DNA of 64,000 nt, taken from NCBI GenBank assembly GCA_037974965.1, contig JBBPFI010000019.1, positions 82,555 through 146,554 of the forward strand. Reading direction: 5' to 3'. Under the pieces are notes generated by a model that made no database searches, was not told the origin of the DNA, and saw only the letters and a list, made by a program, of their open reading frames with translations. Position numbers and translations under genes: made by a program. This document shows, piece after piece, positions 1 through 38,890 of this stretch; position 1 is the first letter of the stretch; every line of letters starts with the position of its first letter. The stretch comes from Dacryopinax spathularia. Taxonomy: Eukaryota; Basidiomycota; Dacrymycetes; Dacrymycetales; Dacrymycetaceae.

Positions 1-197
1 TTATTTTTAATTTACCTTCAGCAGTAAGGTGTTCTTTATTTTTAACTAAATTAACAGCTTTTTCACGCCCGGACGAGAAAATTAAAAATTGAGAATATTT
101 AGAACTTTTTAAAGAAACACAATTTAAAATAGGTATTATACAATTTATCAATGAATCTTTATTATTTATAAAGAAATTACATCTATTTTTTGTTTGC

Positions 198-243
198 AAG
201 TTTGTATACAAACTTAAAAACCTGACTTTTTAAAAAAGTCAGG
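198..243 (-). repeat. double hairpin of a different sequence (family D)
   Basis: Two consecutive palindromes, AAGTTTGTATACAAACTT and CCTGACTTTT...AAAAGTCAGG, inside the cox3 intron 3 LAGLIDADG ORF between recognisable segments GKISIS and NRCNFF. They disrupt the frame. The two-stem design matches families A and B but the sequence does not. Confidence 0.65.
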
Positions 244-453
244 AAATTGAAATTTTACCACATCCTAAATTTTTTTGTATATATTTTAATACTTCTAAAT
301 CATCAATATGTAAACCTATTTGTTTTCAAAAATTATTATAATAATTTTTAAAAACCTACATAAAAATTATTTTTGTAGGAAAAGTTAAATTTAAACTTTT
401 ATAGTTATTTGATTTAAAATACTTTAAACTTATATTAAAATTTCCTTCAGCGT

Positions 454-518
454 TCTCGATTTTTATTTTTAAGAATAAATCGAGATCTTTATTTTTTTTG
501 TTCAAAAAAAAATAAAGG
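454..518 (-). repeat. double-hairpin element, family A (in cox3 intron 3 ORF)
   Basis: Same double-stem architecture and same ends (CCTTTATT at the 5' end, TCGAGA at the 3' end). It sits after the first base of the Asp codon of GFI-D-AEGNF (G|insert|AC). It is 65 nt long, so it shifts the frame. Confidence 0.85.
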
Positions 519-722
519 CTATAAATCCAGTTAATCAATGTATAAAATTTAAATTAGGTTTAACTTCATTTATAGAGTTATTAAAATTAGGAGAAGTTCA
601 TAGCTCCTTAATTAAATTTTTCTTGATCCTTTCGGTTTGAAAAGGAATTGTTACGCTAAATTTCCGTTTATTTATTTTTTCTGTGTGAATAATATTAAAA
701 TTGAAAGGGGCTACAAAAGTTA

Positions 723-3674
723 ACCCATGAAGACCAGTTGAAGCAAAGAAAACACTTCCATAAACAGAGTCAGCAAAACTAAAAGAAGCTTCACTATATT
801 CGACATATTGTAAATAAGTGAATAATATAGCTAATATTATAGTTAAAAAGGTTCCTATGATTGCACCGCTTCTATTCCCTGCTATTAAAGCATGATGCCC
901 ATATGTAATAAAAGCCAATAATTTAAAAATTATCCGACTGTACATTAAGCCTAGTTCTATTTAACTAGACCCATCAAAGAACCAGTCTGTAGCAGTTTTT
1001 AATAACTGACGGTCTTGATTACTAAATAGAAATATATAATATTAAACAATTTATTGTTATTTAGTTTATTATTGACCGTTAACTTCGATGTCGCTGTTAA
1101 ACATTGAATTTAAAATTACAATGTTTAACAACTATATAAAATATTTCATATTCATTATAATCTTTTTTTTTTTTTTTACATATTATTTAGAATGCCTAAT
1201 TTATATAACATAGTTGGTACTATGAAAGGTTTAGTTAGTTGAATTAAATGAGGCAAGGAACTTTTATTTATATATATACTATAATAATATTCTTCTCCTT
1301 GTTTATAGTGTTTTTTAAGAGTTTTTAAACTTCTATGTATTGAAACTTTTAGTTGAAATTTTTTATTTAATAAATTACTTAAATATATTACTTCTGATTG
1401 AGTAAAACTATGAGTAGCAATTACAAGTCCTCTATTCTTTATATAATAACCATCATCCATTATCCATATAGCTAAAGTTTGTGGAGTTAAAAATTCACCT
1501 ACAAAATTTGGTACAACTTTTATACCATTGACATAAAAAGATTAATATATTCAATTTCAACTAGAAAAGCTGAATGTATTAAATCGTACGATTTGTCTAG
1601 TTAAATTTAAATTATTTAAGTTTGTACCTAAATCTAGTAATTTAGATACAGCAGGTATAAAAACACTTTTATTTTTATAAAATGTACGAGTGTTTGAACG
1701 AGTTGTTACTATAGGTTGATCTTGTTTACAATATCCTAAATTAGAAATTAAATTATGTAAATATAAAACATATTCTAAGTGTATAGCAGAATAATAAAAT
1801 CTAAAAAAAGTCCCATCCCCACGCTTTTCAGCATAACAGTCCCCTAATAAACCAATAATCAAAATAGCTAATATATTAAAATTATGTGGACCTATTCTAT
1901 TATGAACAGGTGTTTTAGGTTTATTAAAAGGTAAAATAGCTAAAGAACTAGTGATAATTTGAATATTAGAGGATATTTCACATTTGTGGCAATAAATTGA
2001 ACATTTACCACTTGATAATAATAAGATTGTATTTAATAAAGGAATTCCAAAAGGATCTAAAGCTTCTATACCTTGAGGAGGCCAAGTACCAGCTATTTCA
2101 ACAGTAGGTGCTAAACTAGAATGAAAATATGCTCAAAATACACTTAAAAAAGCAAACACTTCACTAACAATAAATAGAGCTACACCTAAAGTTAACCCTT
2201 TTCTAACTTCACTAGTATGATTACCTAAATAGGTCAAAGTTTGTTTCAATTTTTCAATTGAAAATGGACTATATCTTATTAAAAAAAAATTTTTTAATTT
2301 TACGTCTAGTCTCTGAGGAGTCCCCAGTCGCCGTGTGGGGTTTCCTGCTGATTGTCCCTATATCTTTGAGATTGAACATAAAGGTACTTAAAGCTTTAGG
2401 AGTTTACAGCATATAGTAAATTTTTAGAAGGCACCTATTTAATTTATTTTTCTTTTGTTATTCATATTGGATTTAATAGCTAAAATTTTAGTTCGACCTT
2501 GTTTCGTTAAATGTTCTTTAGTTATTATCATATTATAAACTTTACATCAGTCTAGGTAATCTTTATATTTTGTACCCTTTAAAGGGTATAGATTTAAATA
2601 GTTGATTAAAGGTTTTATAGATACAACAGAAGAAAGACTTATTGATAATGCCTCTTTTTTTACACCCTCAACATTAGTTTTATATTGAGTCTTCATAATG
2701 TTACAATTTAAGTAAGACGCTATAAATTCCATAACTTTATCCAGAGATAAACCTGAAGGTTTGTCGATAGCTCGTTGATCTATTCTAAATACTATATGAA
2801 TACTTTCACTTCGGGATCTGATTCTGGAAGAACTTGTAGGCAAAGCCGTACGATAATTTATACCAAAATGACCATCTGCCTCAATCATCCCCGTAAATCA
2901 ACTGTTTTTAAATAAAGGCGATGTATCTATTAGACTCTCATTTATATTTATACTATACTTTGTATTGATAAAATGTATTAGTTGGTTAAATCTGATATTT
3001 TTAGGAGTTCTAAGTTTTCCGTGTACTAATTGGATGAATTTAATGATCCCTTCTTTATCACCTATAATGTAACAAAGAGTGTTAGTTCGTTTTGAGAATC
3101 TACCAATATTGCCTAGTTCTTGTTGTATATAACTATACATACCTAAATTGTTCATGTGCGAAGTAAAAACTATTCGAGGATTTAAAACTCTATTTAATTG
3201 AGTCTTACCTATTGAAGGTAAAGAAATATGACCATCTCCTTTCTCGATTTATTATATATATAATAAATCGAGATCTTTATTTTCTAAGAAAATAAAGGCT
3301 AGTAAACCTGCTAAATAGTATCCTAAATTTAAGTCATCACTTTGAAGATTAGGAATATTTTGTTCTTCTTTACAATAAAGATCATAAGCTTTCTTTACTT
3401 CTGTTGGCGAAATAACGTTTGAATTTATAACTTTATAGAATTGAAAATTTAAGGAACCTTCTGTTATAACATCTTTAAACCATAGTGTCATACCGAAAGT
3501 TGTCAATAAGAAACCTAATAACAACATATAGCCACTAAAAGGAAAACCATGAAAGTAAGAAACCGCAGATACAGTAAGAGTTAATAAAGCAAAACTAGTT
3601 AATAAAGGTCACGGAGATGGTTCTACTAAATGATAAGGAAAAGGTTGATATTCTATTCTAACTTTTTGAATCAT
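723..3674 (-). CDS. cox3: cytochrome c oxidase subunit 3 (partial, 3 of at least 4 exons)
   Basis: Membrane core subunit of respiratory complex IV. Exons read 3674-3456, 2234-2007 and 915-723; the C-terminal exon lies left of the window. The start ATG at 3674 gives [20 protein letters not shown], a normal Cox3 N terminus. Later landmarks are [44 protein letters not shown] and [17 protein letters not shown]. Each 5' exon ends in T and each intron ends in G, as group I splicing requires, and the phases join cleanly. TGA codes Trp. All three introns carry LAGLIDADG ORFs in frame with the preceding exon. Confidence 0.95.
916..2006 (-). pseudogene. cox3 intron 2, group I, with degenerate LAGLIDADG ORF
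   Basis: The intron follows [11 protein letters not shown] of cox3. Its ORF has the GPHN entry and a first motif reduced to IIGLLGDCY where the family reads GLLLGDGY. The second half contains [19 protein letters not shown] and MLYKLG. A TAA interrupts the frame near 1550 (NWIY-stop-SFYVNG). The group I core lies near the 3' end, at about 960-1110, and carries the pairing-element sequence ACAGACTGG. The cox2 intron 2 ORF is its closest relative here. Confidence 0.75.
2235..3455 (-). pseudogene. cox3 intron 1, group I, with LAGLIDADG ORF split by a palindrome
   Basis: The ORF continues from exon 1 (KDVITEG) and ends at 2439. Motif 1 is LAGLL, then a 57-nt double hairpin (3242-3298), then GDGHI. 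Excising the hairpin gives LAGLLEGDGHI. Motif 2, [12 protein letters not shown], is intact and needs TGA as Trp. The C terminus shows [12 protein letters not shown]. The hairpin carries TAA codons, so the ORF is closed without its removal. The group I core follows the ORF at about 2250-2420 and includes AAGATATAGTCC, the S element. Confidence 0.8.
3242..3298 (-). repeat. double-hairpin element, family A (in cox3 intron 1 ORF)
   Basis: Two adjacent inverted repeats on the minus strand: CTTTATTTTC...AAAATAAAG and CTCGATTTATT...AATAAATCGAG. The element lies after the first base of the Glu codon in LAGLL-E-GDG (G|insert|AA). It is 57 nt long and contains TAA in the host frame. Confidence 0.85.
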
Positions 3675-3883
3675 TAAAAAAAGAATACAAAGATTAAATA
3701 GTTAATTTTTGGCTAAAAAATAAAAATTTTAAACATATAAAACAAATATTATTAAATATTAAAAAAATAAGATTGTAATAGTTTTTGCTATAAGTAAAAA
3801 TAAAAACCTTTTTTTTAAAAGAAAGAGTTGTTTACTTTAGAATTTAAATTTTTCCTATAAGAAAATTTTTAATAAAAATCAAA

Positions 3884-3967
3884 GGATTTGTGGTAGAGTT
3901 GGTTTAATACGATCGTCTTGAAAACGATTACTTGAAAAAGTCATGAGTTCGAATCTCATCAAATCCG
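3884..3967 (+). tRNA. trnS(uga): tRNA-Ser(UGA)
   Basis: Acceptor stem GGATTTG/CAAATCC, anticodon arm ATCGT-CTTGAAA-ACGAT (anticodon TGA), a long variable arm and T loop TTCGAAT. It is one of very few plus-strand genes in the window. Confidence 0.93.
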
Positions 3968-4039
3968 TTATAAAATAAAAGAATTAAAAATATTTATTTA
4001 TTTCGTCTGGAAAAAAAAAAAGGTTAAGCGAAACTTAAT

Positions 4040-4114
4040 TAAGACTAAGGAGAATTGAACTCCTACTCTATCCATTATGAGTGGATTGCATTAACCAAAT
4101 TATGCTATAGTCCT
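4040..4114 (-). tRNA. trnM(cau): tRNA-Met(CAU)
   Basis: Acceptor AGGACTA/TAGTCTT, anticodon arm ATCCA-CTCATAA-TGGAT, T arm AGGAG-TTCAATT-CTCCT. Whether it is initiator or elongator cannot be decided from the sequence. Confidence 0.92.
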
Positions 4115-4123
4115 TAAAATTTT

Positions 4124-4206
4124 TGAGCAGAGAAGGATTCGAACCTACATAGGTAAATACCAATTGTTTTACAGACAACCACTTTAACCAATTCAGTCAT
4201 CTGCCC
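4124..4206 (-). tRNA. trnY(gua): tRNA-Tyr(GUA)
   Basis: Acceptor GGGCAGA/TCTGCTC with one G-T pair, anticodon arm TTGT-CTGTAAA-ACAA, an extended variable arm as in class II tRNA-Tyr, and T loop TTCGAAT. Confidence 0.92.
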
Positions 4207-4227
4207 TTACTATAAAATCTAATTAGT

Positions 4228-4301
4228 TGCTCCGAGACCGAATTGAACGATCGCTCCCTACTGCTTCAAAGTAGTGCTTTAACCGGCTAAGCTACCGAAG
4301 C
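4228..4301 (-). tRNA. trnF(gaa): tRNA-Phe(GAA)
   Basis: Acceptor GCTTCGG/TCGGAGC, anticodon arm CTACT-TTGAAGC-AGTAG (GAA), T arm GATCG-TTCAATT-CGGTC. Confidence 0.92.
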
Positions 4302-4902
4302 TTAACATATTTATGAATACTGTGAGAAATAAATAAATTTTACAAGTTACTAAAATAAAAAATGCCCGCGTAAGCGCACGCGTGGCGGATATAAAAAAAA
4401 ATGTTTTATTTTCCTTTTTAATATCTTAAATTTTTAATTAAATAAAATAAAAATGAATAATACTAACGTTATTTTAAATATAATTAATATAAAAATTGGT
4501 TTTAATTTACATATTACCCTTCATCTTTTTATAAATAAAATAAATGAAGATCTTACTTTTTAATTTTAAAAAGCAAGAAAACAGACAAAAAATGTGTGTT
4601 TTCTTTAAAAATTTTTTTACCTTAAAATTAAATGAGTACTATAACGTAATTCTTTTTTTTTTATTTTCAGCTTAAGAAAATAAAAAATAATTTCATACAA
4701 TATATAAATTAATAAGATTATTATATTTAAAATTTAATAAAATAAAGGCGTTATGAAATCGTGGGCAGAAAACGTAAAAAAAGAACGAATAGTTAATAAA
4801 TTTTCAATGTTTTGTTTAAGTGACCAGAGATAATAAATTAATTTTTTTTATTTAAGTAAATTTAAATAAAAAGTAAAAAAATTAGAATTATTACAATTAA
4901 TT
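4302..4902. other. AT-rich spacer with one GC-rich palindrome
   Basis: No gene is recognised. Near 4363-4388 there is a GC-rich inverted repeat (GCCCGCGTAAGCGCACGCGTGGC), one of the CGCCACGCGG-type clusters. A 27-codon plus-strand ORF starting near 4752 (MKSWAENVKKER) has no recognisable identity. Confidence 0.5.
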
Positions 4903-4975
4903 TGGAGAAAAATAGAATTGAACTATTATTTATGTATTGCAAATACATTAGATTAACCATTTATCTGATATCCCC
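4903..4975 (-). tRNA. trnC(gca): tRNA-Cys(GCA), copy 1
   Basis: Anticodon arm TGTAT-TTGCAAA-TACAT (GCA). The acceptor GGGGATA/TTTCTCC has one mismatch. A second, quite different tRNA-Cys(GCA) gene lies at 42661-42732. Confidence 0.82.
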
Positions 4976-6126
4976 TTTTCAAAATTTTAACTTTTTTTAG
5001 TTTTATCATAAAACAAGAAAAATAGAACTAAATCTAATACTTTTATTATTAAATTTAATATATATACTAACGGGGTTGTTATTTTTTTTTTTTTATAATG
5101 CAGCTGCACCTTCCAGTACAGCTACCCTGCTACGACTTCATCCCAATTATAAAATTAGATTGGAAACACCTTCTTAAATAAGATTTATAAGTTTATTTTA
5201 GTAATATCTAACTTAAATATTATAAATCCTAAATTATTCTTTAATTCTAAAATTAACCTTAAAGATTAATTAATAAATTAAAGAATTATATAAAGTTTTA
5301 TTCTTAAAAGCACAACTTCGGCTAACTCTACTTTCAGCACGTGACGGACGGTTAGTTCATTACGGATTATCTATTCACCGTTGCGTAATTATCAACGATT
5401 ACTCGAAATTCCTGCTTCATGTTACCGAGTTTCAGGTAACAATCTGTATTCATCTTTTTTTTAGTGATTAGCTTTTCCTTTAATACAGCAATAATTTTTT
5501 AAAAATTATCCATAACACGGTTTTGCGTCACATTGTAAAAGATCTTGTGGCACATCTATCATGGTTATCAAATTTAACTAAAAAAAAATTTTTTTTTTTT
5601 CGTAAAAAATTTATTTTTCATTTTCATAGCCTTTTATATTTCATTTTCTATGCAAATTCATATTATTTATTATTTTTTTTATTTTATTTAAACCTTCTAT
5701 TCTTTCTTGAAAAAAAATAAGTATTTTTATTTCTCCCGTGGGGAAAGATCTTCACTTTAAGTAATAAAGTGAAGAAAATGATCTTTATTATATACCATTT
5801 CTGCTATTAATTTAAAATCTAAAAAATCTAAATATTTTACACCCATAATAGGATATTTTATAAAAAATGGTATTATCCTTTTTTTAATTATATCTAAATT
5901 CTTAATTTGTAATAAGATATTACCTTTAATTCTTGATTTATAAATATATTTACTATTTTTTATATGATCTGACTCTAACAATAAATAATCTCTTATACCA
6001 AAAATTAAAAGTTCATCTTTAATATGTAGGTTTGTACCAAATAATAAACGAATTCTAAAGCCTAATTTTACATGTTTAGCTGTTTCTATTGAAACAGCAA
6101 AACTAGAGTCTCCAGAAATAAATCCT

Positions 6127-6183
6127 GTTGTGTTTTTTTTAATAAAAAAAACCAACCTAAGCTTGTTTTTACAAAACAAGCTG
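6127..6183 (-). repeat. double-hairpin element, family B (rns intron 3, motif 2)
   Basis: Stems CAGCTTGTTTTG/AAAACAAGCTT and TTGGTTTTTTT/AAAAAAACACAA. Inserted as TC|element|A, so removal leaves Ser codon TCA immediately before GFISGDSSF. It is 57 nt long and entirely open in the host frame. Confidence 0.87.
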
Positions 6184-6717
6184 GAAATTCAAAAAGGATT
6201 AGGAATTCCTTTAAATATGTAATTTGGTTTCTCTACAGTTTTAATATCTGTGAAAGACACCTTTAATTCTTCAGTTAAACCTTTATTAAGATTAGTTTTT
6301 AAAGAAATAATTTTGTTTAAACCATTTAAAGTTAAATGCTTTTTTTCTCTTATTAACATATAAGATTCTTTAAATAATAAATAATCAGATTGTTTTCTAC
6401 TAATTAAAGGATATTTATCCTTAAAAAAAAATGAATCTTTTTTTTTTAAGGCTTTTAAGTTTGATGTTTCAAACTTGCAAGCAAAATGTTTTATAATAAC
6501 TTCTAATTCTTTAATATTATCTACTCTATATAAAACACTTGTTTTACTATTTATGCGAACATTCCCCACTTTTAAGGTTTCTTTAATATTTTGTAATAAA
6601 TTATAATCTTTAATATGAATATGTATAGAAAAGCTGGGTATGACCCGTCATCCCAATTTTAAACTAGAATCACGATATATAGAAATAATAAAAGAACCTT
6701 CTGCATCACTAAACCCC

Positions 6718-6775
6718 GTTGGTTTTTTTTCTAAAAAAAAAAACCAACCTAATCTTGTTTTGGAAAAACAAGATG
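6718..6775 (-). repeat. double-hairpin element, family B (rns intron 3, motif 1)
   Basis: Stems ATCTTGTTTT/AAAACAAGAT and TTGGTTTTTTTT/AAAAAAAACCAA. Inserted as AC|element|G, so removal leaves Thr codon ACG followed by GFSDAEG. It is 58 nt long and therefore shifts the frame by one base. Confidence 0.87.
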
Positions 6776-8172
6776 GTTATAAATCAAGGATTTAGATTAT
6801 TTTTAATTATCATTATTATTTTTATTTTTGTTTATTTGTACTTTGATTTTTACTACGGTTTTGAAAAAAAATTTTAATATCTATTCGTTCGAAAATTTTT
6901 AAAAATATTTGTGCGTACTATATTTTTATTTAGTAAGGATTTTGATTTGATTACTATTTTCATAGTTCATTAGAGTATATCTTAAATTTGATTTTTTCTA
7001 ATTATCAAATTAACTATCATTTACTCGTTGCTCTTTTACACTTTGACTAGAACCAAGTCAAAGTGATTTAGATCCGCGATTACCTATTTCATTTTATTTC
7101 ATTTTTTGAATTATTACCATACATGACTTATTAGATCATTCAATCTTTTTTTTTTAATTTTAATTTTTTATTTTTTAAAATTTGGTATCAAAAATTTTAA
7201 GATTTTCCCGGAATTTGATAGTTAGAGCCAATTAAGTGTTTTCCTAAAACACATATCAGCCCATTCCATTAAGGCCATAACGACTTGTCGTCTCCCCAAT
7301 TGTTTTCCCTCATCCATTATGGACTTTACCATTATTAACAAAAAAATTAATAATAAGGATTGCGTTCGTTAACTGGAACAAACCAGACTTCTTGCGATAC
7401 GAACTGGCAACAGCCATGCAACACCTGTAACATGATTCTAAACAAAGTTTGTAAAAAAAAAACAAACTTATGTTGAATCCTAAAAATAAGTATTTTTTTA
7501 AAAATACATAAAAAACATAGGTAGTATTTTTAGTTGTTATACAAGAAATGGTAAGATTTTACGCCATTTCGCCAAATTTATCATTACTAGTTTAATAATA
7601 TAAAATTTTTTTTATAATCTTTATTAAATATCAATAGTTGATAGCATTAAGTATAAATATAATATGATTTATTATTTCCTATGCCACCCACGGCTAAAAA
7701 AAAAAATAAAAATAATATATTTTTTTTTATTTTTTTTTAAGTATTTTCTTGTTTTTTTTTATTTTTTTTTTTATTTTATAATTTATTCTACCCTTGCCTT
7801 TTAGAATTCATACTTTGTTTTAATTTCATTATTTGATTTAAGCCGTTTTCAGTTAAATGTTTGGATTCTTTAATTATATTTGCTGCTTCACATCAATTGT
7901 TAAAATCTTTTTTTTTAATACCTATAATATTATTATTATTAAAAAATGGAATAATAATATTATAAATATCTGAAAATTTTGTTACAGAAAAATAAATACT
8001 TCCTCTGTCTTCTGTTATATATCCACAATTAAAATATGAAATAAAACTTTTTAATAAATTTTTATCTCGTTTATGTTGGCTAATACTAAATTTTAATTGT
8101 ACATAGTTTTTGTTTTGGGATTTATTTGTAATAATATTTATAAAAAAACAAGCTTCACCTGAGACAAAACCT

Positions 8173-8232
8173 GTTGTGTTTTTTTTATTAAAAAAAAAAC
8201 CAACCTAAGCTTGTTTTGAATAAAACAAGCTG
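8173..8232 (-). repeat. double-hairpin element, family B (rns intron 2, motif 2)
   Basis: 60 nt with stems like the copy at 6127. Inserted TC|element|A before GFVSGEA. It keeps frame but contains an in-frame TAG between the two hairpins. Confidence 0.86.
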
Positions 8233-8727
8233 GACATTCATTGAGGGTTTGGTATTATAGAATTTTGAATGAGTGGACGAGGTACTGGAAAACAATTAAG
8301 AAAAGTATTTTTTAAAACAGACGTAAGGCCTAAATTCATAGAAGCTCTTATATTAATTATTTCCGCAATACCATTAACTGTTAAATGTTTCTTAGTTTGC
8401 ATTAATATAACAACATTCTTAAATAGTAGATAATCTGCTTTTTTCTGTGTTATTAAAAAATACTTATCAAAATGAGGGATTACTTTAGAAGTTATATTTT
8501 TCAAAGATCTTATAGAAAAAACACATCTTTGTCTTTTTTTATCTATTCTAATATTACTAATATTACCTTTGCCCTTGGCTTCAGGCAAGGGTCGAAATAA
8601 TTTCTAATTATATTTAATAATTCTAAATCTTTCATATGTAAAGAAATCTCAAATGTAGGTTCTATTGCTCATCCTTTGTGGAGTGAAGTTAATTTTCGTA
8701 TTTTGATCATAAATGTACCTTCTGCAT

Positions 8728-8789
8728 TCTTGATTTGTAATATTAATATTACAAATCAAGATCTTTATTTTTTAAATAAAAAATAAAGG
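8728..8789 (-). repeat. double-hairpin element, family A (rns intron 2, motif 1)
   Basis: Stems CTTTATTTTTTA/TAAAAAATAAAG and CTTGATTTGTAATATT/AATATTACAAATCAAG. Inserted G|element|AT, splitting the Asp codon of GIT-D-AEG. Only 11 nt separate it from a family B copy. Confidence 0.87.
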
Positions 8790-8800
8790 CAGTTATACCT

Positions 8801-8852
8801 GTAGGTTTTTTTATAAAAAACCTACCTAATCTTGTTTTAAAAAAACAAGATG
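8801..8852 (-). repeat. double-hairpin element, family B (rns intron 2, motif 1)
   Basis: 52 nt, stems ATCTTGTTTT/AAAACAAGAT and GTAGGTTTTTT/AAAAAACCTAC. Inserted AC|element|A just ahead of GITDAEG. Confidence 0.86.
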
Positions 8853-9632
8853 GTTATAAATCAGCTTAAATTCTTATCTAATATCATATTGTATTTATTT
8901 TTATGGTTAGTATAAAAAAATCGTTTTAAAAAATTTTGTTTAGAAAGGATTTTGGCTATATAGTAATTTTCATAAACTAATAGATCACACCTTAAATTAT
9001 TTTTCAATAATCAACTACCATCTGTTCGTTGCTCTTTTACAAATTCAATATTAAATCTTTTACCACTTAAATTTTTATATTTTAAATTTGAAAAAGGTAA
9101 AAGTAATGAATATGATTTAGATACGCGATTGCCCATTTTATTTTCATAAATCTTCTGACTTATTACTGTATCTGAATAATTAGTTCAGAGTAACATAATA
9201 TTTATTTGTTGTTTTAGTATCAGAAGCTTTAGGGTGTCCCCGTAATTTGATAGTTTACACCCAAAAAATGTAGATTTCCTAATTCTACTTTCGGGTTATC
9301 GTATTAAACAACATGCTTCACTTCGTTTGCTCCGAAACCGACTAATTTTTTTGATTTCGCTTTTGCAAGTATAGTGTCAAGGCGGAATGCTTAACGTTCT
9401 TTTTACATCGACACCAATTCAATTTGAACTAGCGATCTAGCATTCATCGTTGACTGTCAGGAGTTCCTGGGTCTCTATTTGGAATAGGTAGACTTTCTCA
9501 AGTTTTCCCCTCCTAAGAACCGGGCAAGCGACTTTCACCGCACACGGCTCAAGCATGATACTTACTTTTTTATAAATTAAATTTTAGTTTTCCTGAAAAA
9601 AATATTTTTTTTCAAGTTTGTAACTTTTGATT

Positions 9633-10464
9633 TCAAAAGTTGCAAACAATCTTTATATTGTTTTTTTTATAACCTAATAAAACTTCATTCATATTTAAAT
9701 ACTCAGTTAAAGATTTTAAATCTTTTTTACTTGTTATATTTAATAAATAAGTTGTTTTTCTAGTATCTCTAGTACGAACTAATACTTTTGGTCCAAATTT
9801 AAAATAATCCTTAATATAGTATATAATTTTTTCATCAGTATGTTCAATAAAAAATCTAGGTATTTGCTTATTTTTTTTTGATATATACGTAAAAGAAGCT
9901 TCACCATTCTTGATTTTTATATTAATATAATAAATCAAGATCTTTATTTTTTAAATAAAAAATAAAGGTAATAAACCCTCCCAATCAGTTTTTCCAAAAT
10001 TCAATTGTTATTTGATTTAAATCTGGAATTATTTTTTCAATTGCAATATTTGATAAATTTTCATCTTTTTTTAAGTAGTTTATTTTATTTAGAATACATC
10101 ATTTTATTTGTTCTAATCGTGTAGATTGATGACTGATTAATAAATTATTTTGAGAGGTGCTTGAATGAAAAAAATTATTTATTAATCATTTTTAATCTTC
10201 ATATTTTGCAATAGATAAGTGAACTTCATTTCTATGCTCATACTTATATATTATACCTCTATATCCTAATTTACTATGTATTTCTTCTATAAGTAAAGTA
10301 TCTCTTATATGTAAACTTAAATGAAAAGAAAATTGTAGTGTATAATGTGTAAAAATCCCTTTACTATTAGTTCTTTTTACTTTTGTTGTTTGAAATTTTC
10401 CTTCGGCGTCAATAAAGCCAATTAATCATTGTTTAAATTTTTCATCGTTTCAAATTTTTATCAT
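9633..10464 (-). pseudogene. LAGLIDADG ORF of the rns group II intron, interrupted
   Basis: ATG at 10464. Motif 1, WLIGFIDAEGKF, is intact. HIRDTLLIEEIH follows. An in-frame TAA lies near 10195 (YED-stop-KWLINN). Motif 2 reads FWKNWLGGFI, then a family A element (9908-9968), then GEASF. Excision gives GGFINGEASF. The remainder shows HTDEKIIYYIKDYF and ends at 9633. At least two lesions make it inactive as read. Confidence 0.8.
9908..9968 (-). repeat. double-hairpin element, family A (rns group II intron ORF)
   Basis: Stems CTTTATTTTTTA/TAAAAAATAAAG and CTTGATTTATTATATT/AATATAAAAATCAAG. Inserted A|element|AT, splitting the Asn codon that replaces the catalytic Asp in GFI-N-GEASF. Confidence 0.86.
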
Positions 10465-11982
10465 TATTAATATTTAGTAGCTACACTTCTTAAAAAATTA
10501 GATAAAACTAAATAACATTAAAATTAAGTTTATTTGTATTAAGGTTTATTGGAGCTGGAGCAAAATATTTTTAGTTTTATTTATTAATTTATATTTTATT
10601 TTTAATTTAAAGTATAATTTGATCACACCAAAAGAAAGTCAGCATCCTTTCAGATTAGTTTATATAAACCTATCTAATTCATTACAAATTAGCATTTGCT
10701 TTTTTCTTATCATTTTACCTCTAATTAATATATTTATCCTCACGAATAAAATAGCAATAAAACTATCATTGCAAATTATAGGTATTACCTTGTTCCTAAA
10801 TAAATACAATAGATAACATTAGGTTCTTACTTTACTATATTAAATAAAATGTTCGTCACCAACTCACCAGGACGTTAAGTTGTCTATTTAATAAGTTTTA
10901 AAACATAAGTTCAGTTTCCTTAACCTTAGAAATCAGTCCTCGTTAAAATAATTAATTTTATTAAAAAAATTAAAAACAGCAAGATAATCTTTAATTAACT
11001 TTATCCTAAAGCTTTATACAAAAATATTACTATCTTTGCATATTTAGGTGGACTATTATCTGACGAAAGATAACATACTTTTTAAGTACAATATTATATT
11101 TAAGCTTTCAAGTCGCACATCCTGTTTCCTTCCCTGACCTTAGTTCCCTCAGCGTCAATTAAACTTGGATAATTGCCTTTGCCTTTATCATTCCACTTCT
11201 CATCTCCAAATTAAGCCTCTCATAGAAGCGTTCTATTATCCTCTATAAAATTCAATCATCTTATATAAATATAAAAATGCTGCCTACGAACCCTTTATGC
11301 CTATTAATTATGAATAACGTTAGCACTAGCCGTTTTACCGCGACTGCTGGCACGGCGATTGGTCAGTACTACGAGGTAATATCGTGTCATTATCTAATTA
11401 TTACTCTATTCTTGATGACGTAAAGACGTTACCAATGAATTCTAGTTAGCTCCATCAATCTTGCGATCATTGTGAAAAATTCTTAGCTGCTGCGGAACAA
11501 TTCCCGGAGGGTTGATTTCATCCCCACTGTGGCCGGTGGCCCTTTCGAGACGACTATGGATCATCGGCTTGAGCTAGTCCGTTACACTATCAACTACCTA
11601 TACCAAATTAAGCAAATCCTATAACAGAAACATTCCTTTATATTAACTTAAAAGCTCTTTATTAGAGACTCATGATAACAACGGATCAAAGTTTCGTAAG
11701 TTAATTGTTCTTAATCTCTAAGAATTATAGGGTATCTTCTTAACCATTACTCACCCGTACGCCAATTATCTCATTGAGATAGATTAACTTGCATGCTTTA
11801 GACTACTAGGCAACGTTCCATCCGAACCAAAATTAAATTCCTTCTTATTGTTAACTTAAGATTTTAGTCTTAGCGTATTATATTCACATTGCTTGTGATT
11901 TTTCTAATTTAAAGAGAGATTTTTAATTCTCTTCTTTTATATAAAAAGAAAAAAATTCTAATTATATTTTGTTTTAATATTT

Positions 11983-13592: not shown

Positions 13593-14349
13593 ATTAAGTT
13601 AGAAAAATTTCTATTATTATTTGAAATTCTTTCTAATCTTTTAAAAAAAGTTTAAATTTAATGAAAATAAAAATTTCAATTTCAATTACAATTTTTTAAA
13701 TGATTTATGTAATTATATATATTTTTTTCCGTGGGGAATGATTATTAATTTTATGCTATTGATAAAAGAAATAAAATTTTATTCATTATTCAATAGTTTA
13801 TATAAAAGAAAAATAAAATTTATTAAATATTTAACTTATCTAAAGCAAACAATAGAGATAAAAGAGATAAAGGGGTGTTAATTATAAAAAAATATTATTT
13901 TGGATTAGTTTGTATATAATAATAATATTTTATTTTAACTTTTGTAGTAAAGGGGAGATATTACATTTTTATAAAAGGGTTTATAAAATTAGTGCCGTGG
14001 GCAGCCGTGGGCAGCCGTGGGCAGCCGTGGGCAGCCGTGGGCAGCCGTGGGCAGCCGTGGTTTAAAAAAAATTAAAAAAATATATTTTTTTTAAACGTGG
14101 GCGAAAATTTTGATTATTTTTATAAATTCGTAATAATTCTGAATTATTGATTATATTACTTATTTATTTAAATATTTGGTTACTTATTCAAAATTTTTAT
14201 TTTTTTTTTATTTTTAATAATTTTTTTAATAATTGTTCATTCAACTATTATATGAACTTTTCATTTATTTCCCATAGCATGAACCTTAAAAATAAAAAAA
14301 AAAGATTTTTTTTTTTATTTTTAATTTTTAGGCAAATGTGAACAAAAAA
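13593..14349. other. AT-rich spacer ending in a GC-rich tandem repeat
   Basis: No gene seen. The plus-strand ORF at 14147-14341 is low-complexity Phe/Leu/Asn and looks like chance. Confidence 0.5.
13991..14060. repeat. tandem GC cluster, about seven 10-bp units
   Basis: Units of GCCGTGGGCA repeat head to tail, followed directly by an A/T palindrome. The same unit appears inverted at 18590-18650 and singly or in short runs at many spacer sites. Confidence 0.9.
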
Positions 14350-15685: not shown

Positions 15686-16800
15686 TTATTTTTTTTTAGA
15701 GAAATCTTTATTTTTTACCAACTCCTTAATTTCATTTTTTAATTTATTAACTTGTTCTTTGTTGTCTATAATTTGTTGTTGAGTTCCAGTCATTAATTCT
15801 TTAACATCACTAGTTGAGAATTCTGCAGAATGTTCTTTTATATATTTTTTAATTTTTAATCATTCAATGATTTCATCATGTGTTCTGATAGTTTCTGATA
15901 GTTTTTTCTTGATTTCAGTCATAATTTTACCTTGTGGTGTTTGAGACCCAGGTATTAAACCAGCTATAAATGGTCTAAAAAAAGGATCTTTACCAGCTAT
16001 TGTAAGAGCAGTATCATAACTTAACATAAGACCTCTCACTGCACCAACTGGTGCAGCTTCATTACATAAACCTTTCACACACATAAGTTCTCTTATAGCT
16101 ATTGTGGCAAATTGGTTTATAGGTTAATTATAAACATCTAATTTACCAGAATGAATTAAATAATAAATATGAACTCATCTATTATAGGATATATATAGAT
16201 GATAAATCCCAAATAATGTACCAATAAAAAGCAAAAAATATATAATATAAATATTAATCCCTAAATTAAACCTATGATTACTTAATATAATTAACAAACT
16301 TAAACCACCTAAAAACCGTAAAATTCTAATTTGTGGTAATAATTGAAACTTTAAAATCTTGTCAGGTAAAGTGGGTGTATTATAAGCTATTTTAAAAGCT
16401 AATCAAATTCTAGAGGATAAACTTTTAGTATTATTAGTAGAATTTAAATCTTCTAAATTATTTTTTCTATTAATAATATTAATATCATATAATGTATTTT
16501 CTACTATTCCAAATAATGGTGTCAGTATAAAAAAAAATAAAAAATAATAGAAAGTAAAGAGTTGACCTAACTCTAAAAATGGTTGATCCGGATGTTGACT
16601 ACCTATTCACCCTAAAGCAATAAAATTGAAAACAAAAAATCAAAATTGGAATTTTGCAATAGGTCTAAATTGATTTCCTCGTAATCGTGAAGTATCTAAT
16701 AATGGCAAGGCTAATAAAATAAGCAATGATCCAAACATGGCAATAACCCCTAATAGTTTATTAGGAATAGATCTAAGAATGGCATAATAAGGTAAAAGAT
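15686..16800 (-). CDS. cob 3' exon copy 3 fused in frame to an accessory membrane ORF
   Basis: From 16800 the frame reads [17 protein letters not shown] through [14 protein letters not shown] to VENTLYD, which is the Cob C-terminal domain with two to three helices. It runs on without a stop through a Ser/Asn/Lys linker, the sequence [15 protein letters not shown] and two hydrophobic segments to TAA at 16124. The same frame continues after the TAA to 15686 with [15 protein letters not shown], a hydrophobic patch and a Lys/Glu coiled-coil-like tail. The extension is homologous to that of copy 2 and is not part of normal Cob. Function unknown. Confidence 0.7.
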
Positions 16801-17269: not shown

Positions 17270-18415
17270 TTTTACTTCTTCAAAAATTTTACTTCATTGT
17301 TTAGCATTATTTAATAATTGTTCATTCAGTAATTTTATGAACTCTTCATACTCTTCTGCAGGTAAACCTTTAAAATCTTTAAGTGAATTTTTAACCTCTT
17401 CTAAGTTTTTAGATTCAGCCTCTATAGCATTTATTTCTGTTATACTTTTTTGAATAAGATGTTTAATTCATGTAGCATCATAAATTTTAGGTACTAATAT
17501 GCTAGCTAAAAAAGGGTGCAAAAAAAGCATGTTGAGAACATGCTTTTAATATTTCGTCTACACCTAACATTATACCTAATGTTAATGCTACAGGTTATGC
17601 AGTATCACAAGTACCTTTTACACAAGCAATAGCTTTTACAGCTAAACTTGCTAATCTATCCTATGGTGAATTACGAACATTGAGAGCATCAGATCGCAGT
17701 AATTTATATAAATATTTAATTCTAATAATAGATATAACTATATGATAGACTAAAAATAATACTCCTATAAACAAAAAAACACAGAGCATATGAAAACTCC
17801 AGGGTTCTGGTAAGCTACTATTACTTAGTAAAGCTAACATACTTAATCCACTTATTACACGAAATACACGAACAATTAGTTTATTCTGAAAGTCCAATAC
17901 ATTTTGTGGTAATGTTGGTGTGTTAAAACCTTTCTTAACACCATATCAAATTCTACCAGTCACAGAATTACTATAAATAACTCCAGTAGAATCTTTCCTA
18001 ATATCTGATGAATTAGAAAAAATTTTATCTGTTTTATCAGAATCCTTTTTAATATTTGATGTATTATAAATAAACTTATCTAATTTAAATTGATTTACAT
18101 CTTGTAAAGTATTTTCTAAAATACCGGTCATTGGTATTATTAATATATAATATCCAAAGTAAAAGGCTGTAAAACCCTGACCTAACCCTAAAAAGGGTTG
18201 ATCTGGATGTTGACTACCTATTCACCCTAAAGCAATAAAATTGAAAACAAAAAATCAAAATTGGAATTTTGCAATAGGTCTAAATTGATTTCCTCGTAAT
18301 CGTGAAGTATCTAATAATGGCAAGACTAATAAAATAAGCAAAGAACCAAACATGGCAATAACCCCTAATAATTTATTAGGAATAGATCTAAGAATGGCAT
18401 AATAAGGCAAAAGAT
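17270..18415 (-). CDS. cob 3' exon copy 2 fused in frame to an accessory membrane ORF
   Basis: The frame from 18415 gives [30 protein letters not shown] and [12 protein letters not shown], the most typical Cob C terminus of the three copies. It continues without a stop through a linker rich in Lys, Asp and Ser ([12 protein letters not shown]), then [16 protein letters not shown] and two membrane segments to TAG at 17661. Degenerate same-family sequence follows to about 17270 ([12 protein letters not shown], then a Glu/Lys tail) with two stops and a frameshift. Upstream is about 70 bp shared with copy 3 but no intron core that I can see. Confidence 0.7.
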
Positions 18416-18589
18416 CACTATATTAATATTTTTTTTTTAACTATTTAGTTAATTCAAATTTATTATAAATTAAATATAAAAATAAAAATAAATTCATTTA
18501 TAAACACATAATTATTGAAATTTACAAATGATACATGTAAAATAAAAAATAATAAAAAAAGGGTTTTTTTTTTATTTTTTTATTTTATC

Positions 18590-18650
18590 AGCCCACGGCT
18601 GCCCACGGCTGCCCACGGCTGCCCACGGCTGCCCACGGCTGCCCACGGCT
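18590..18650. repeat. tandem GC cluster, six 10-bp units (inverted relative to 13991)
   Basis: GCCCACGGCT units head to tail followed by an A/T palindrome. It separates the ORF region at 18710-21500 from cob copy 2. Confidence 0.88.
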
Positions 18651-18709
18651 AAAAAAAAAAATATTTTTTTTTTAACCACGACATTAAAAAAAATTAATCA
18701 AAAAATATA

Positions 18710-21500
18710 TTAATTTCTTTTAAACATATTAATAAATAAAGTTATTAATATTATGTATGGGAAAACTGGTATAGAAGTAATAGTAATAAATAATAATACT
18801 AGAATAGTACAAATTAGTAATTTAAAAAAAATACATAATCAATTATCACATAATATATATCTTATTTTTGTAATAAGATAAGTAATAGGAACACCTAATA
18901 ATATTTTTTTATTAAACATTAGATTAAGAATATCTAATGAATCAATATCTATAATAGGACAAGAAATTAAATAATGAATAGTAAATAAAAAAAATATTGA
19001 AACGAAACAAAAACAAATTAAAAAATATAAAGCTATAGGTAATAAAATGAATTTGTCTGTAATTGTTAAATTTTCTTTTAAATTTTCTTTTTCTTCTATC
19101 TTTAATCAGGTATAGATATCTAGGATAAAAGAAATAATGAATCTAATAAATATAATTCATAAAATTTCTTTTGGTAAATTTGATAAAATAAAATGTAATG
19201 GTGTAACTAATAAAAACATACATAAATAATATGTTTTTAATCCAAAAATAAAATTTGAAACTATTGGAAAAATAAAGGATAACTCATTTAAATCTAAAAA
19301 TTTAAATATGGTTTTTGTTAATAAACTACTTTCTTCAAGATTCAACTTGGTTGAATCTAAAATAAAGGTTTTAATTTTTTCTGGTATAGTTTGTAAATAT
19401 TTTAATGGCTTATCTGGTATATTTTTAATAAGTTTTCACAGCTTATCATCAGTATGCGCACGTAATCCATTACCTAACATCCTATTAAAATCAGGTAGTA
19501 AAACCATATTGATTTGGGGAGAACTACCGGTAGGAGGAACACTATCCCTATATCTAATATAGGTTAACATGTGTTGTCTAATCAAATCTTGCCCAGGATA
19601 AGTTCCGTATTCTCTAATATGATCTCTGATATAACCAAAAAGATAATCATACATTTCATGAGGGTTTACTCTGTTAGAACGTAGCTCGGTAAGCTCATTC
19701 CGGTATCCTGTGTTACCAAGAGATGCAAACATACTACCCTCTCTCACCCGAGCTACCCATAGGCTAGTCAAGTGATGCATATCTCAAGATGCAAAAGCCG
19801 GCACAGTTTCATTTGGATTTCGAGATAGGTAGTTATTTTGAAACATAAATATATTTTCCATATAAAGACGAGATTGCGCATCATCACTGGTTAAACCTAA
19901 GTATAGAAACATAGGAGATAAATGACGATAATTATTTATCATATATGTCAATATATCTATTAAGTTTTCCATACTCCGACTAGTATTTTCTACACTTTCT
20001 AGTATAAAAAATATGTTAGGGATAAGGTTACTTAACATTATTGAGTTGGGACTTTGATTTAAAAGGCCAATTAACTGAGGATCAGTCCAAATTGTATCTA
20101 AAAAAGTTTGTGGAGTTTGTGGGTGACTGTAAATGCTGACGAACATCCTGTAATAAATATCATATTGATGGTCTTCCCACATCAGACAAACGACGATCAG
20201 TCATAATATCATTTATTATTAAATCCATTAACTCAGGCTCAATTCAATATCTGCATAGAAAGAATCGAATAAACCCAGTGTACTCCTTAAATGTTCGATA
20301 TTGGTATACAACCTTTGTCTGTTAATATCTAAAGATATTCTTATAATATCTCAAACGTTTAAATTGTTTTGATTAGTGATTATGTTTAGGTTACCACCAT
20401 AATTAAGGGTAACAATAAGATTTATGTTGCTAGTTAAATCTTGATATACTACAATAACTTCATTATATCTATTAAGTAGAATATCTCTATTAGCATTAAC
20501 AGAGCTATTATTGATAATACGGCTTATAAATCGATTGAAAAAATCTGACCTAGGATTCCGTTGGAAATTCAATCTCACTCTTATAACAGTATTAATAGCT
20601 TGATTATTAGCGAAAGATAAAGGTTGACGTGAAGCTTCAGATAAATGAGATCTTCTGATGAATTCTAAGATATTTATTCTACCCTCATTTGATTCTAAAT
20701 TATTTATACGTGGAAAACCAGCTCTACTTCTTAGTGTACCTAAACGGTTAGTATTATATACATAAGTCATAAAGTCATTTCCAATACAACGAAAACCTAG
20801 CCCTAGCATGCATCATAGTTTCGTAAGGCTGGATCGTTCACTTGAGTAGACAACGAACTACTAGTAGCTATATTACTAGAACTTGGCTGTTGGTTCTGAG
20901 ACACTTGATTCATAATTTCCCGTCCCTGTCTTAACCTAGACTTTGGGCTCAAGGCTAAATTATTTTGATCAAATAGTTCTAATGTATCATCAGGAAGATT
21001 AACTATTGCCGGATACCTAATATGAGATTGATTATTATTGCTTCTTTCTAAATGAGTCCTTCTGCTTCATCAGATTCTCTCTAATTCATCCTTTGGTACT
21101 AAATTTCAATTTCGATTCATCATTGAACTTTGACTCCTGTTAAAAGATGCTGAAACGATTTTTTGCTCAGAGGAAGTTGGAGTATCCTCTGAATTAGTTT
21201 GTATTTCTTTTTCTTTTCCTTTTCCTTTATTGTTAAGCTTTTCTGACTTTTAGTCTTGTTTTTAGTCTTAATAATAGGTTCATCTCAATCAGTTGGTTTT
21301 CAGTTACTCTTTTTATTAGGATCGTTTGGGATCATCTTCATCATCATCTTCATCACGACTGAATCCCTTCCCCCACAGAACCGGACTAGGTAAACTAAGC
21401 AAAACATGATTTTTATTACTAAAATTTTTTGTTTTGCTTAGTTTATTAACTTCTCCTCCTCCTTTTCCTCCTGCCTTTCCTCTTTTTCACCCAAAAAATT
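18710..21500 (-). pseudogene. large unrecognised accessory ORF following cob 3' exon copy 1, frameshifted
   Basis: Coding-like sequence runs for about 2.7 kb in at least five frame segments. It opens with a Gly/Lys/Glu-rich stretch and an acidic run (RDEDDDEDD). A Ser/Asn/Gln-rich region (NQQPSSSNIATSSS) follows. A globular segment (MLGLGFRCIGNDFMTYVY to NLNV), WIEPELMDLIINDIMTDR and SRSMENLIDILTYM come next. The end is a hydrophobic C terminus of three to four membrane helices finishing NMFKRN at 18710. Frame changes fall near 21330, 21240, 20810, 20240 and 20160. A GC content and codon use above the spacer suggest acquisition. I do not recognise the family. Confidence 0.6.
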
Positions 21501-21565
21501 ACATCATGTAAGGAATTTTCTACTATTCCAAATAATGGTGTCAGTATAAAAAAAAATAAAAAATA

Positions 21566-24500
21566 TTAGAAAGTAAAGAGTTGACCTAACTCTAAAAAGG
21601 GTTGATCAGGATGTTGACTACCTATTCATCCTAAAGCAATAAAATTGAAAACAAAAAATCAAAATTGGAATTTTGCAATAGGTCTAAATTGATTTCCTCG
21701 TAATCGTGAAGTATCTAATAATGGCAAGGCTAATAAAATAAGCAAAGAACCAAACATAGCGATAACCCCTAATAATTTATTAGGAATAGATCTAAGAATG
21801 GCATAATAAGGCAAAAGATCAAATTTTTATTATTATTAAATTTAAAAATAATTTATAAAATTAAAAAAAAAAATACTAAAAGATGTATATTTTAAATAAA
21901 TTAACTAGTAGTCTCTTGAAAATTTCAATCTAAATTAAATTTTAAATTTAGACTTTTTTATTAAGTATATGGTAAATTCATCATTGTTTTTAAAATATAT
22001 CCTATTTTTTATCTCTATTTATTTTTTTTTATAACTCCTAAATAAAAATTTTATTATTCTGTTATTTTAAAATTATAAAAAAATTCTATATCCTCTTGAA
22101 AATTAAAAAATTAATATTATCTTTATTTTACAATAAAGCTTGGACTATCTATTTATCTTAAACGTTATAAAGATATTTCACATATAGTCTCTGAAAAAAA
22201 ATTACTTCTAAACTATTCCTTAAAAAAAACCACAGCAGCTGCTGCAGACCACGGCTACCCACGGATGCCCACGGAAAAAAAAAATAAAAAAAAATTTTTT
22301 TTATTTTTTTTTTTTACTACGGTAGAAAAAGGTTAAAATTAGAAATAAAATTCCTGCTGATTGTCCAAAAATAGGATATTTTAGCATATAGTGAAATTTA
22401 TTAAAATTTTAAAATTTAAATTTTATTAAGAATGGCATCTTATTAAGCACCATTCAGGAACAATAGATGCCGGTGTTGACATTGGATTTGCAGGTATATA
22501 GTTATCTGGATGCTATCAAATAAATAATTTTATTTAATTGGACTATATCTTCTAAATAATTTATTTAATAGATAATATTCTACGCTATGGGTAATTTAAT
22601 AAATTTAATATATACCATGCGTAAAAAAAAAAAAGAAATAAATAAATCTTCTAATAAACGAATTTATTTATTTAATCCTATATTTATGTATAAGTATAAA
22701 ATAATAGAAAAAAAATATCTTAAATTATTTTCAGATAGGACTACCGTATAAAAAAAAAGATAAGTGAGATAATTACTAATTTGTTAATAAGATATCTCTT
22801 ACCTGAGTTGAAGGGTAGCCAAAGGTAAAGGAAAGAAAATAAACAGAAGAAAAAAGAAAGTTTTTAAATTTTGACTTTATGGTTTATGATAAAATAACGA
22901 TAATATTTAATTTTAACTTTTATTGTTTCATTTTTTCATAAATAATAATCATTTTTTATATAATATAGAATTAGGACTTTGGTTTAAATAAGCCTTTAAT
23001 TCATTTTAATTCATGAAAATCTTGGATCAAGTATGTTCTATGTCTTTTTATTGTTTTAGGTGGAAAATTTCTAAAATATTCATATAATTTTAAATGTAAT
23101 AATTTAGAGTTAGCTTTTCAAATATAATAACCGTTTTGAGATTTATCAAAAAAGATTTGACCACTCTAGTATTTCAGGTAAATAACTCTAAATTTGTTTT
23201 ATATTTACTACTAATGCTGATTGTCAATTGATATCTATATAAATTATCATTTAATTTTTGTTCATAAATATTAATAGAACCATCAGCATCTAATAAACCA
23301 CTTAAATAAGCAGAATCAATAGTTGGTTTAATACTCTCTAATATTGGAATATTTTAAAGCTAAACAAGCTTTATGTAATTGTTTTAATCTTATATTATTT
23401 ATGATTAAATCCATTCAAACAATGAATAATTTTTATTATAGCTTGATTATTTTGAGTTCTATATCGTATAGCATTCACACCTGAACGAGGTTTAATATTT
23501 CCCCCAAATTTATTTTGTATAATACGTAAAACTTTTTCATCACAAATTGGTAATGTGATTTCATACCCAACATAATTTTCTTTTGTTACATAAATATAAC
23601 CATCCCCATCTGTTAATCCTGCAAATCACTCTTTAAAATTTAAAGAAATGATATTATTATGATTATCTGTTATTTCATCACTTGTCTTTGCTTCTAAATT
23701 AATTTCACAATCTTTTTTATTTATAATACTATTACTTAAAATTTTAGTATTAGTACTATAATTTTTATGAAAGATAGTTGATTTAATATATTCAGTCTTA
23801 GGAACTCCCCATAAAGAGAAAAATTATAAAAATGTCTTATATTTTGTGTGCGTATAGTCTCTGAAATTCCTACTGGTATATTAGTATTTTTACTTTTTAA
23901 GGCGTGATATTTTATGCTCATAATTAAAAGCCGAAACGCTTGAAAAGGTAACTTAATTATTTTTGTTAAATCCGACTTATTTAGTATAAATTTGAATCCG
24001 TGACATAAAAAAAAAAACGCATGATGATAAAAAGAATTATTATAATATACTTTGTGTTATCTGCTGATTATATATTTTATTTCAATATTTTACTAAATCG
24101 TGATTTAAATTTTTATTACTTAGAACGAATTCATTATTTAATAAATATAGACTCACACCCAAGAAAATAAGTTACAATAAAAGTTATTTTCGGTTATGGG
24201 ACTTATATAAATCGTTTATAAATTTAGTTTTGGAAATAAATTTTTATTAAGTAAAATCTTAATATATACTTCCAGCTTATAGCACAAATTGTTATAATAT
24301 AAAAAATATTTCATATTATAATAGGCCAAACAAGACCTAATGTATTAGGCATATAGAACACTACAAAACTTAATACCCAAAAAAATAATAGTATTGTTAC
24401 TAGATCATTGAACTAAGGCCGCGAACTATATAAGATCTTTCGGACTCGTCACCGAACGGTGCAGGAAACTTTCGTATTCACACCGCTCTCCACTAAATAC

Positions 24501-36880: not shown

Positions 36881-37040
36881 TTATCATATATTTTAAGTCT
36901 TTATTTTCGTCACAGTATGTTTAAAAGATTTGAAAAAAATGAACTGTCGTAATTTAAGCAAGATAAACATACGATAAAAAAAAAAAGAGAAATACAAGTT
37001 AATTAAATACTTTATCATTATAAATTTATTTTTATTTAGC

Positions 37041-37111
37041 CAAGAATAAAGCGATTCGAACGCCTACCATTGATTTTGGAGATCAATATACTACCATTAT
37101 ACTATATTCCT
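37041..37111 (-). tRNA. trnW(cca): tRNA-Trp(CCA)
   Basis: Acceptor AGGAATA/TATTCTT, anticodon arm TTGAT-CTCCAAA-ATCAA. The anticodon CCA reads UGG only. It closely resembles the neighbouring trnW(UCA), with which it shares most of the D and T arms. Confidence 0.88.
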
Positions 37112-37249
37112 AAAAAAAAAATATTTAACTTTTTTTTTTAAAGGCTTTTAACTTTTTAAATATAAAAAGTTGCAAGCTTTTTTTATATTACTATTAAAAA
37201 ATAGTAAATAAAAAAAACTATAATTAATTTACTAAAACAAAATATTTTA

Positions 37250-37320
37250 CAAGAGTAAAGCGATTCGAACGCTTACTAATGATTTTGAAGATCATGATAC
37301 TACCATTATACTATACTCTT
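37250..37320 (-). tRNA. trnW(uca): tRNA-Trp(UCA)
   Basis: Acceptor AAGAGTA/TACTCTT, anticodon arm ATGAT-CTTCAAA-ATCAT. It decodes UGA and UGG, matching the many UGA Trp codons here. A degenerate duplicate lies at 42333-42403. Confidence 0.93.
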
Positions 37321-37387
37321 AAAAAAATAAAGGGAGTTAATAAGAATTAAAAATAAAAATAAAACTCTATAAATAAAAAGGGGGTTG

Positions 37388-38818: not shown

Positions 38819-38890
38819 AGGTATTAAGAGGATTCGAACCTCTGTAATGAGTAGTAACAGTACTCTGCATGACCACTATGCTATAATACC
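38819..38890 (-). tRNA. trnN(guu): tRNA-Asn(GUU), copy A
   Basis: Acceptor GGTATTA/TAATACC, anticodon arm GAGTA-CTGTTAC-TACTC. Identical in sequence to copy B through the whole tRNA as far as I can see. Confidence 0.9.

Follow-up and report, generated by a model that had tools for sequence, protein, structure and literature searches.

Inserts in the endonuclease genes

The 64,000-nucleotide stretch of contig JBBPFI010000019.1 analyzed here (hereafter the window) is mitochondrial-type DNA, most likely of fungal origin. It has a GC content of 24.8%, is read with genetic code 4, and contains cox3 exons, pieces of the small-subunit (SSU) rRNA gene and tRNA genes, together with frames that we take to be atp6, nad and cox2 genes. 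Within positions 1-10,600 lie five homing endonuclease genes (HEGs) of the LAGLIDADG type, HEG I, II, IV, V and VI, all on the minus strand and all bearing short inserts, two families of which, named A and B, recur at exact positions in or just ahead of the LAGLIDADG motifs (Table 1). The host genes match either PF00961 or solved LAGLIDADG_1 members, HEG I being recognized through the solved members only and the others in the Pfam scan, where the C-terminal piece of HEG VI stays under the cut-off (21.2 versus 23.1 bits). HEG IV, V and VI are located between SSU rRNA matches (5′ part at 11062-11840, 3′ part at 5372-5556), and a group II domain V match is found near HEG VI, at 9479-9552. A LAGLIDADG_2 gene of a cox3 intron displays an in-frame TAA at 1542-1544.

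The first-pass annotation of this DNA had described four copies of a double hairpin, each splitting a motif codon in a different endonuclease gene. We recovered all four family A copies at these positions on the minus strand, each folding as two adjacent hairpins, and the same motif codon is indeed hit repeatedly in four different genes, the split following its first base in 4/4 cases. The layout of family A comprises an unpaired initial C, a hairpin CTTTATT...AATAAAG, a single A, and a second hairpin TCTYGATT...AATCRAGA, whose final pair includes the last base of the insert. Pairing is retained through two-sided changes (TCTCGA/TCGAGA versus TCTTGA/TCAAGA), the fold z-scores of A1 to A4 are -5.0, -6.2, -8.9 and -5.6, with 0 of 200 shuffled sequences equally stable for each copy, and the GC content is 0.18 in A2 and 0.13 in A3. 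The A core AGATCTTTATTTT has five exact matches in the 64 kb, namely the four A copies and a match at 62905, where the double-hairpin scan was empty; allowing up to one mismatch, eight matches are found versus 1.85 expected in the window. Elsewhere in the window there is no further A copy with hairpins, and the A pattern gave no match in viral_contigs. Matches to the A core in genome_contigs (at least 119, bacterial or archaeal in the 80 for which titles were listed) were rejected as chance, both hairpin partners being present in none of them and one partner in a single case.

The recurrence of family A therefore stands, while the idea that it is the sole element does not, since family B recurs too and four other inserts (C1, C2, D1 and E1) lie elsewhere in HEG I, IV and V. 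All four B copies are placed just ahead of motif cores, at both motifs of HEG IV and both of HEG V; they begin with CC and, with the boundaries used, each follows the first base of a Ser/Thr codon that precedes Gly. Seven of the nine motifs in the five genes thus carry A or B (four with A, four with B, motif 1 of HEG V with both), the two that carry neither being motif 2 of HEG II and motif 1 of HEG VI. The B core has four matches in the window versus 0.00 expected, and its pairing is also retained via two-sided changes (AGC/GCT versus ATC/GAT, TTGG/CCAA versus TAGG/CCTA); no other copy of this core with hairpins was found in the 64 kb, and the B pattern had no match in viral_contigs. Folding gives two adjacent hairpins in less than 100 nt for 8/8 copies of A and B. 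Regarding the remaining inserts, the second hairpin of D1 resembles that of C2 in the opposite orientation, and the family to which they belong is thus not restricted to a particular site or orientation. F1, a probable insert that includes most of a hairpin at 5749-5775 and overlaps a GC-rich stretch, was delineated from profile positions 15-124 and 123-145, which flank it, the second fragment scoring just 6.2 bits.

Two further places in these genes may be mentioned here. A hairpin at 9616-9647, in the C-terminal part of HEG VI, has a 15-bp stem with a mismatch and is read through in frame, and HEG I has, around positions 60-85, four residues more than its solved homologs at a short GC-rich stretch, which could be a small in-frame insert.

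Table 1. Inserts and endonuclease genes at the start of the window; a slash marks the point at which a codon is split.
Feature	Class	Length (nt)	Coordinates	Strand	Location and remarks
A1	Family A	65	454..518	-	Motif 1 of HEG I; omission leaves G/AC; frame +2
A2	Family A	57	3242..3298	-	Motif 1 of HEG II; omission leaves G/AA; in frame, contains TAA TAA
A3	Family A	62	8728..8789	-	Motif 1 of HEG V; omission leaves G/AT; frame +2
A4	Family A	61	9908..9968	-	Motif 2 of HEG VI; omission leaves A/AT; frame +1
B1	Family B	57	6128..6184	-	Before motif 2 of HEG IV; in frame, stop-free; no counterpart in aligned solved homologs
B2	Family B	58	6719..6776	-	Before motif 1 of HEG IV
B3	Family B	60	8174..8233	-	Before motif 2 of HEG V; in frame with a stop
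B4	Family B	52	8802..8853	-	Before motif 1 of HEG V, upstream of A3
C1	Double hairpin	57	323..379	-	HEG I, before the IGLHIDD block; holds a stop
C2	Double hairpin	51	193..243	-	HEG I, after GKIS; holds a stop
D1	Double hairpin	63	6420..6482	+	HEG IV, between HF and DKYPL; in frame, stop-free; no counterpart in aligned solved homologs
E1	GC-rich single hairpin	20	8572..8591	-	HEG V; frame-shifting; weak fold (z -1.4, 18/200 shuffles as stable)
F1	Probable insert	about 71	5704..5774	-	Near the C terminus of HEG IV; breaks the frame; boundaries approximate
HEG I	LAGLIDADG		1..553	-	cox3 intron; cut by the window edge; matched to solved members
HEG II	LAGLIDADG_1, two motifs		2442..3434	-	cox3 intron; frame runs on from the upstream exon
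HEG III	LAGLIDADG_2		about 1000-2000		Without A or B core
HEG IV	LAGLIDADG_1, two motifs		5760..6836	-	Relative of I-PanMI and I-CpaMI
HEG V	LAGLIDADG_1, two motifs		7791..8893	-	Relative of I-SmaMI and the I-OnuI set; intron in SSU rRNA gene region
HEG VI	LAGLIDADG_1, two motifs		9573..10476	-	In-frame TAA at 10192-10194

Position of the inserts within the motif

When A1 to A4 are left out, the codons GAC, GAA, GAT and AAT are rebuilt in GFIDAEG, GLLEGDG, GITDAEG and GFINGEA, respectively. The codon split by family A is that of position 6 of LAGLIDADG, the first acidic position, whereas the catalytic acidic residue occupies position 8. The first-pass claim that the catalytic codon itself is split thus has to be corrected, as the A-split codon lies two codons ahead of the catalytic Glu (E22/E178 of I-OnuI). 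In the alignment to 6uvw_A, an I-OnuI derivative, the Thr of TGFSDAEG (residue 20 of the HEG IV frame) corresponds to chain position 15 and the first residue of the HEG IV motif 2 region to position 164, which places the split at 19 and 175 and the second acidic residue at 21 and 177; with a single offset of +1 on this numbering, the latter become E22 and E178, in agreement with the I-OnuI motif. The I-OnuI variant E22Q is given as inactive in PMC3769382, and E178D as a mutation of the active site. The residue at the split position itself varies, being Asn with A4 and Ser in motif 2 of HEG IV and V.

The exact boundaries differ between family A and the other inserts. A slide of one base to the right is possible for all eight non-A inserts, because the right flank begins with the first base of the insert, and for none of the four A copies; each of these right flanks is CAGG, CGGG or CAAA (D1 being taken in its own orientation). 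To the left, A4 and B4 can slide by one base and B2 by two. Our reading is that the non-A inserts either duplicated a single C or favor a C, with family A probably following a different rule, on small numbers and with boundaries that were partly chosen.

With the inserts omitted, the five host proteins share 18-38% pairwise identity. The alignment of HEG V then spans 291 residues, with 289 bits to aHE15, 256 bits to 3qqy_A and 251 bits to I-SmaMI, versus 167 bits to HEG IV, while HEG I reaches at most 95 bits with solved structures versus 56 bits with HEG V, and HEG VI 61 bits versus 34 bits with HEG V, the phmmer and BLASTP bits behind the solved-structure and HEG-to-HEG scores being comparable only roughly. 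aHE15 is a reconstructed ancestor and hence represents no natural empty site; 3qqy_A, listed as a ribosomal protein 3/homing endonuclease-like fusion, is presumably I-OnuI. The joined HEG I and HEG V sequences cross the A site in their solved homologs without a gap, and in the alignment of HEG IV to I-PanMI and I-CpaMI, which begins past B2, only B1 and D1 are left unmatched. The two-hairpin anatomy and the exact common site are directly seen, and the solved homologs are insert-free at this site wherever the alignment covers it. Such base-exact placement in proteins that are 18-38% identical argues for repeated targeted insertion, or for copying from gene to gene, over inheritance.

Origin of the inserts and state of the host genes

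We consider it probable (about 0.58) that family A represents a DNA element of the fungal mitochondrion, short and with two hairpins, that made several recent entries at one nucleotide of the LAGLIDADG motif in four divergent genes, and that family B did likewise a few codons upstream in four motifs. Under this model, the elements of both families would be mobile, the common site would be set by the target DNA, among the few stretches that these genes share, and entry would occur through a cutting or priming activity. A frame-breaking insert would then silence its host gene, unless it is removed from the RNA or bypassed.

Several points weigh against this model. No enzyme was identified for the proposed mobility, and searching viral_contigs with the patterns of A and B and with three endonuclease queries yielded no empty-site allele of a close relative, for which reason we infer mobility rather than observe it; the three endonuclease proteins or pieces gave pattern matches in viral_contigs, but no relatives by tblastn. 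The solved homolog of HEG II spans the motif at just 6.8 bits, and the alignments shown for HEG VI stop short of A4. Closure of the reading frame was one criterion in setting the insert boundaries, and thus their agreement with the outermost pairs of the fold in B1-B4, C1 and D1 (the second hairpin of C2 falls short of both ends) is supportive rather than independent proof. Finally, the five genes show little other damage, although genes silenced long ago would be free to accumulate it.

An alternative that we regard as possible, if unlikely, is that ectopic gene conversion, or template switching, carries the inserts from one endonuclease gene to another at the short block that these genes conserve, such that their position reflects copying and no target is recognized. 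The identical position in paralogs would be expected from such copying, and family B adds to this, as its subtypes track the motif that they precede, which is motif 2 for B1 and B3 and motif 1 for B2 and B4, the latter pair having the 10 left-side bases TGATTTATAA in common. The flanks of family A, however, appear by eye to share little beyond what the protein motif demands, and a copied tract would therefore barely exceed the element itself.

It is more doubtful that the inserts are removed from the RNA like mini-introns or skipped by the ribosome like byps, the two hairpins bringing the flanks together and the endonucleases still being made. What speaks for this is the state of the reading frames. 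Over 1,333 codons (138 in the window for HEG I, 312 for HEG II, 299 for HEG IV, 303 for HEG V and 281 for HEG VI), omitting the 12 inserts other than F1 leaves continuous frames with no frameshift and one internal stop, the TAA of HEG VI; two more stops are the first codons shown for HEG IV and VI, upstream of the genes, and HEG IV is broken once more by F1, past its listed end. The match of insert-free HEG V to a solved enzyme over 291 residues, and the restoration by excision of Asp, Glu and Asp at position 6 in A1-A3, point the same way. Moreover, the small frameshifts seen in three LAGLIDADG genes within 22,314-31,903, a stretch without any hairpin scoring 22 or more, are absent from the hairpin-bearing genes: each of the three has one well-supported frame change, at 27.87, 28.75 and 23.4 kb. 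Two further frame changes in hairpin-free genes rest on fragments of 7-8 bits, and a fourth hairpin-free LAGLIDADG gene (30146-31501) is open throughout. The hairpin-bearing genes have thus not decayed by small indels, suggesting either that the inserts are recent or that the genes are still read past them, which would need RNA removal or bypassing. On the other hand, leaving out any clean insertion closes the frame anyway, the TAA in HEG VI is a plain stop, the well-supported breaks in hairpin-free genes number just three, and no known RNA family in Rfam, including group I and group II introns, overlaps any insert.

As for bypassing in particular, identical take-off and landing triplets were found at none of 48 offsets (the four codons closest to each of 12 inserts), and if translation resumed at the nearest codon, A1-A4 would yield Asn, Lys, Asn and Asn, where excision yields Asp, Glu, Asp and Asn. 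Judged from the sequence, bypassing gains no support from this, yet it is not refuted either, as known bypass sites are not always perfectly matched (PMC5009743). B1 and D1, being in frame and stop-free, could simply be translated. Substitution between HEG IV and HEG V (pN 0.43, pS 0.54) indicates mild constraint near saturation and does not favor strong selection. Homing endonuclease genes commonly decay after fixation, and functional expression was obtained for about 10% of several hundred novel examples (PMC13405050). Quite improbable, in our view, is a fuller version in which the double hairpins are gene-sparing parasites of parasites that home into the most conserved block of selfish genes and would leave the RNA precisely, so that the codon is rebuilt and a functional endonuclease carries the element.

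Inheritance of the inserts from a common ancestral endonuclease gene would account for one site being occupied in several members of the family, and is nevertheless very improbable. Family A occupies motif 1 in three genes but motif 2 in the fourth, and HEG IV is without A at the site where HEG V has A3, which makes common inheritance unlikely; it would require many losses. In addition, HEG V, I and VI score above each other's level against insert-free solved homologs, where compared, and we rejected common ancestry on these score comparisons together with the domain position. Palindromes arising by chance in AT-rich DNA, or an artefact of the assembly, which the low GC content and the many simple A/T hairpins of the window might suggest, deserve almost no credence, as hairpins scoring 26 or more number 30 in the window versus 0 in each of six randomized sequences (most of the 30 being neither A nor B), and these counts, together with those of the A and B cores, refute chance palindromes for both families.

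Other features were noticed in the window. By eye, a one-base insertion in motif 1 of a hairpin-free LAGLIDADG gene (29276-29300) lies close to the family A position. A GIY-YIG endonuclease-like gene, also recognized by eye in a cox2 intron (59604-60662), is interrupted near an A/T double hairpin at 60350-60413, with further hairpins at 59938-59978 and 60264-60293. Three copies of a sequence that we read as the C-terminal part of cob occur at 16475-16774, 18090-18389 and 21494-21793 (the latter two with 86% and 95% identity to the first) and have different continuations, and a duplicated block (37010-39119 and 42302-44367) contains tRNA-Asn, tRNA-Pro, and apparent truncated and full copies of nad6. 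Arrays of the 10-bp GC-rich unit CCGTGGGCAG or its complement, at 13981-14072, 18588-18669 and 49087-49148, are unlike the AT-rich remainder, and 30-bp tandem repeats occupy 49984-50163 within a long open frame.

Known hairpin elements and significance

Double-hairpin elements of Allomyces, short and proposed to be mobile, were reportedly described by Paquin et al. in 2000, mitochondrial ultra-short elements of Podospora are said to go back to Koll et al. in 1996, and the byps of Magnusiomyces reportedly to Lang et al. in 2014. In yeast, GC clusters are short GC-rich inserts that interrupt the LAGLIDADG frames of free-standing endonucleases; they are not known to share a motif codon. Families A and B are like the Allomyces elements in being short and in having two adjacent hairpins, but those elements are described as GC-rich (PMC6609731), whereas both families here are AT-rich and, within the window, occur solely in LAGLIDADG motifs. 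The Podospora elements are likewise very short repeated mitochondrial sequences (PMC7272585). The Magnusiomyces byps are also short blocks in mitochondrial coding frames, lying at 81 positions there and affecting 12 of 15 protein genes (PMC5009743), whereas the inserts described here occur, as far as examined, in endonuclease genes only and without matching take-off and landing codons.

The closest precedent is found in the mitochondria of Annulohypoxylon stygium, where short hairpin (SIR) fragments lie in LAGLIDADG_1 domains and are thought to hinder the enzyme; short hairpin fragments inside LAGLIDADG_1 domains are also what we observe here. The A. stygium fragments comprise 27 single-hairpin and three double forms, and the part of PMC6140425 available to us reports no recurrent codon position. 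The novelty proposed by the first-pass annotation is therefore to be narrowed: hairpins in LAGLIDADG_1 domains had already been published for A. stygium. In the literature that we searched, which left out most subscription papers, there was no report of recurrent insertion at one motif codon. The inserts thus belong to a known kind, that of short hairpin inserts in fungal mitochondrial endonuclease genes, to which the present analysis adds their codon-exact recurrence in the LAGLIDADG motif.

Short hairpin elements are widespread in organelle genomes, and two families placed at exact bases of one motif, in genes with little other resemblance, provide a defined target and a testable rule. Should the inserts prove to be tolerated in the RNA or the protein, they would represent a new expression mechanism; if they are not, they would amount to a targeted switching-off of homing endonucleases.
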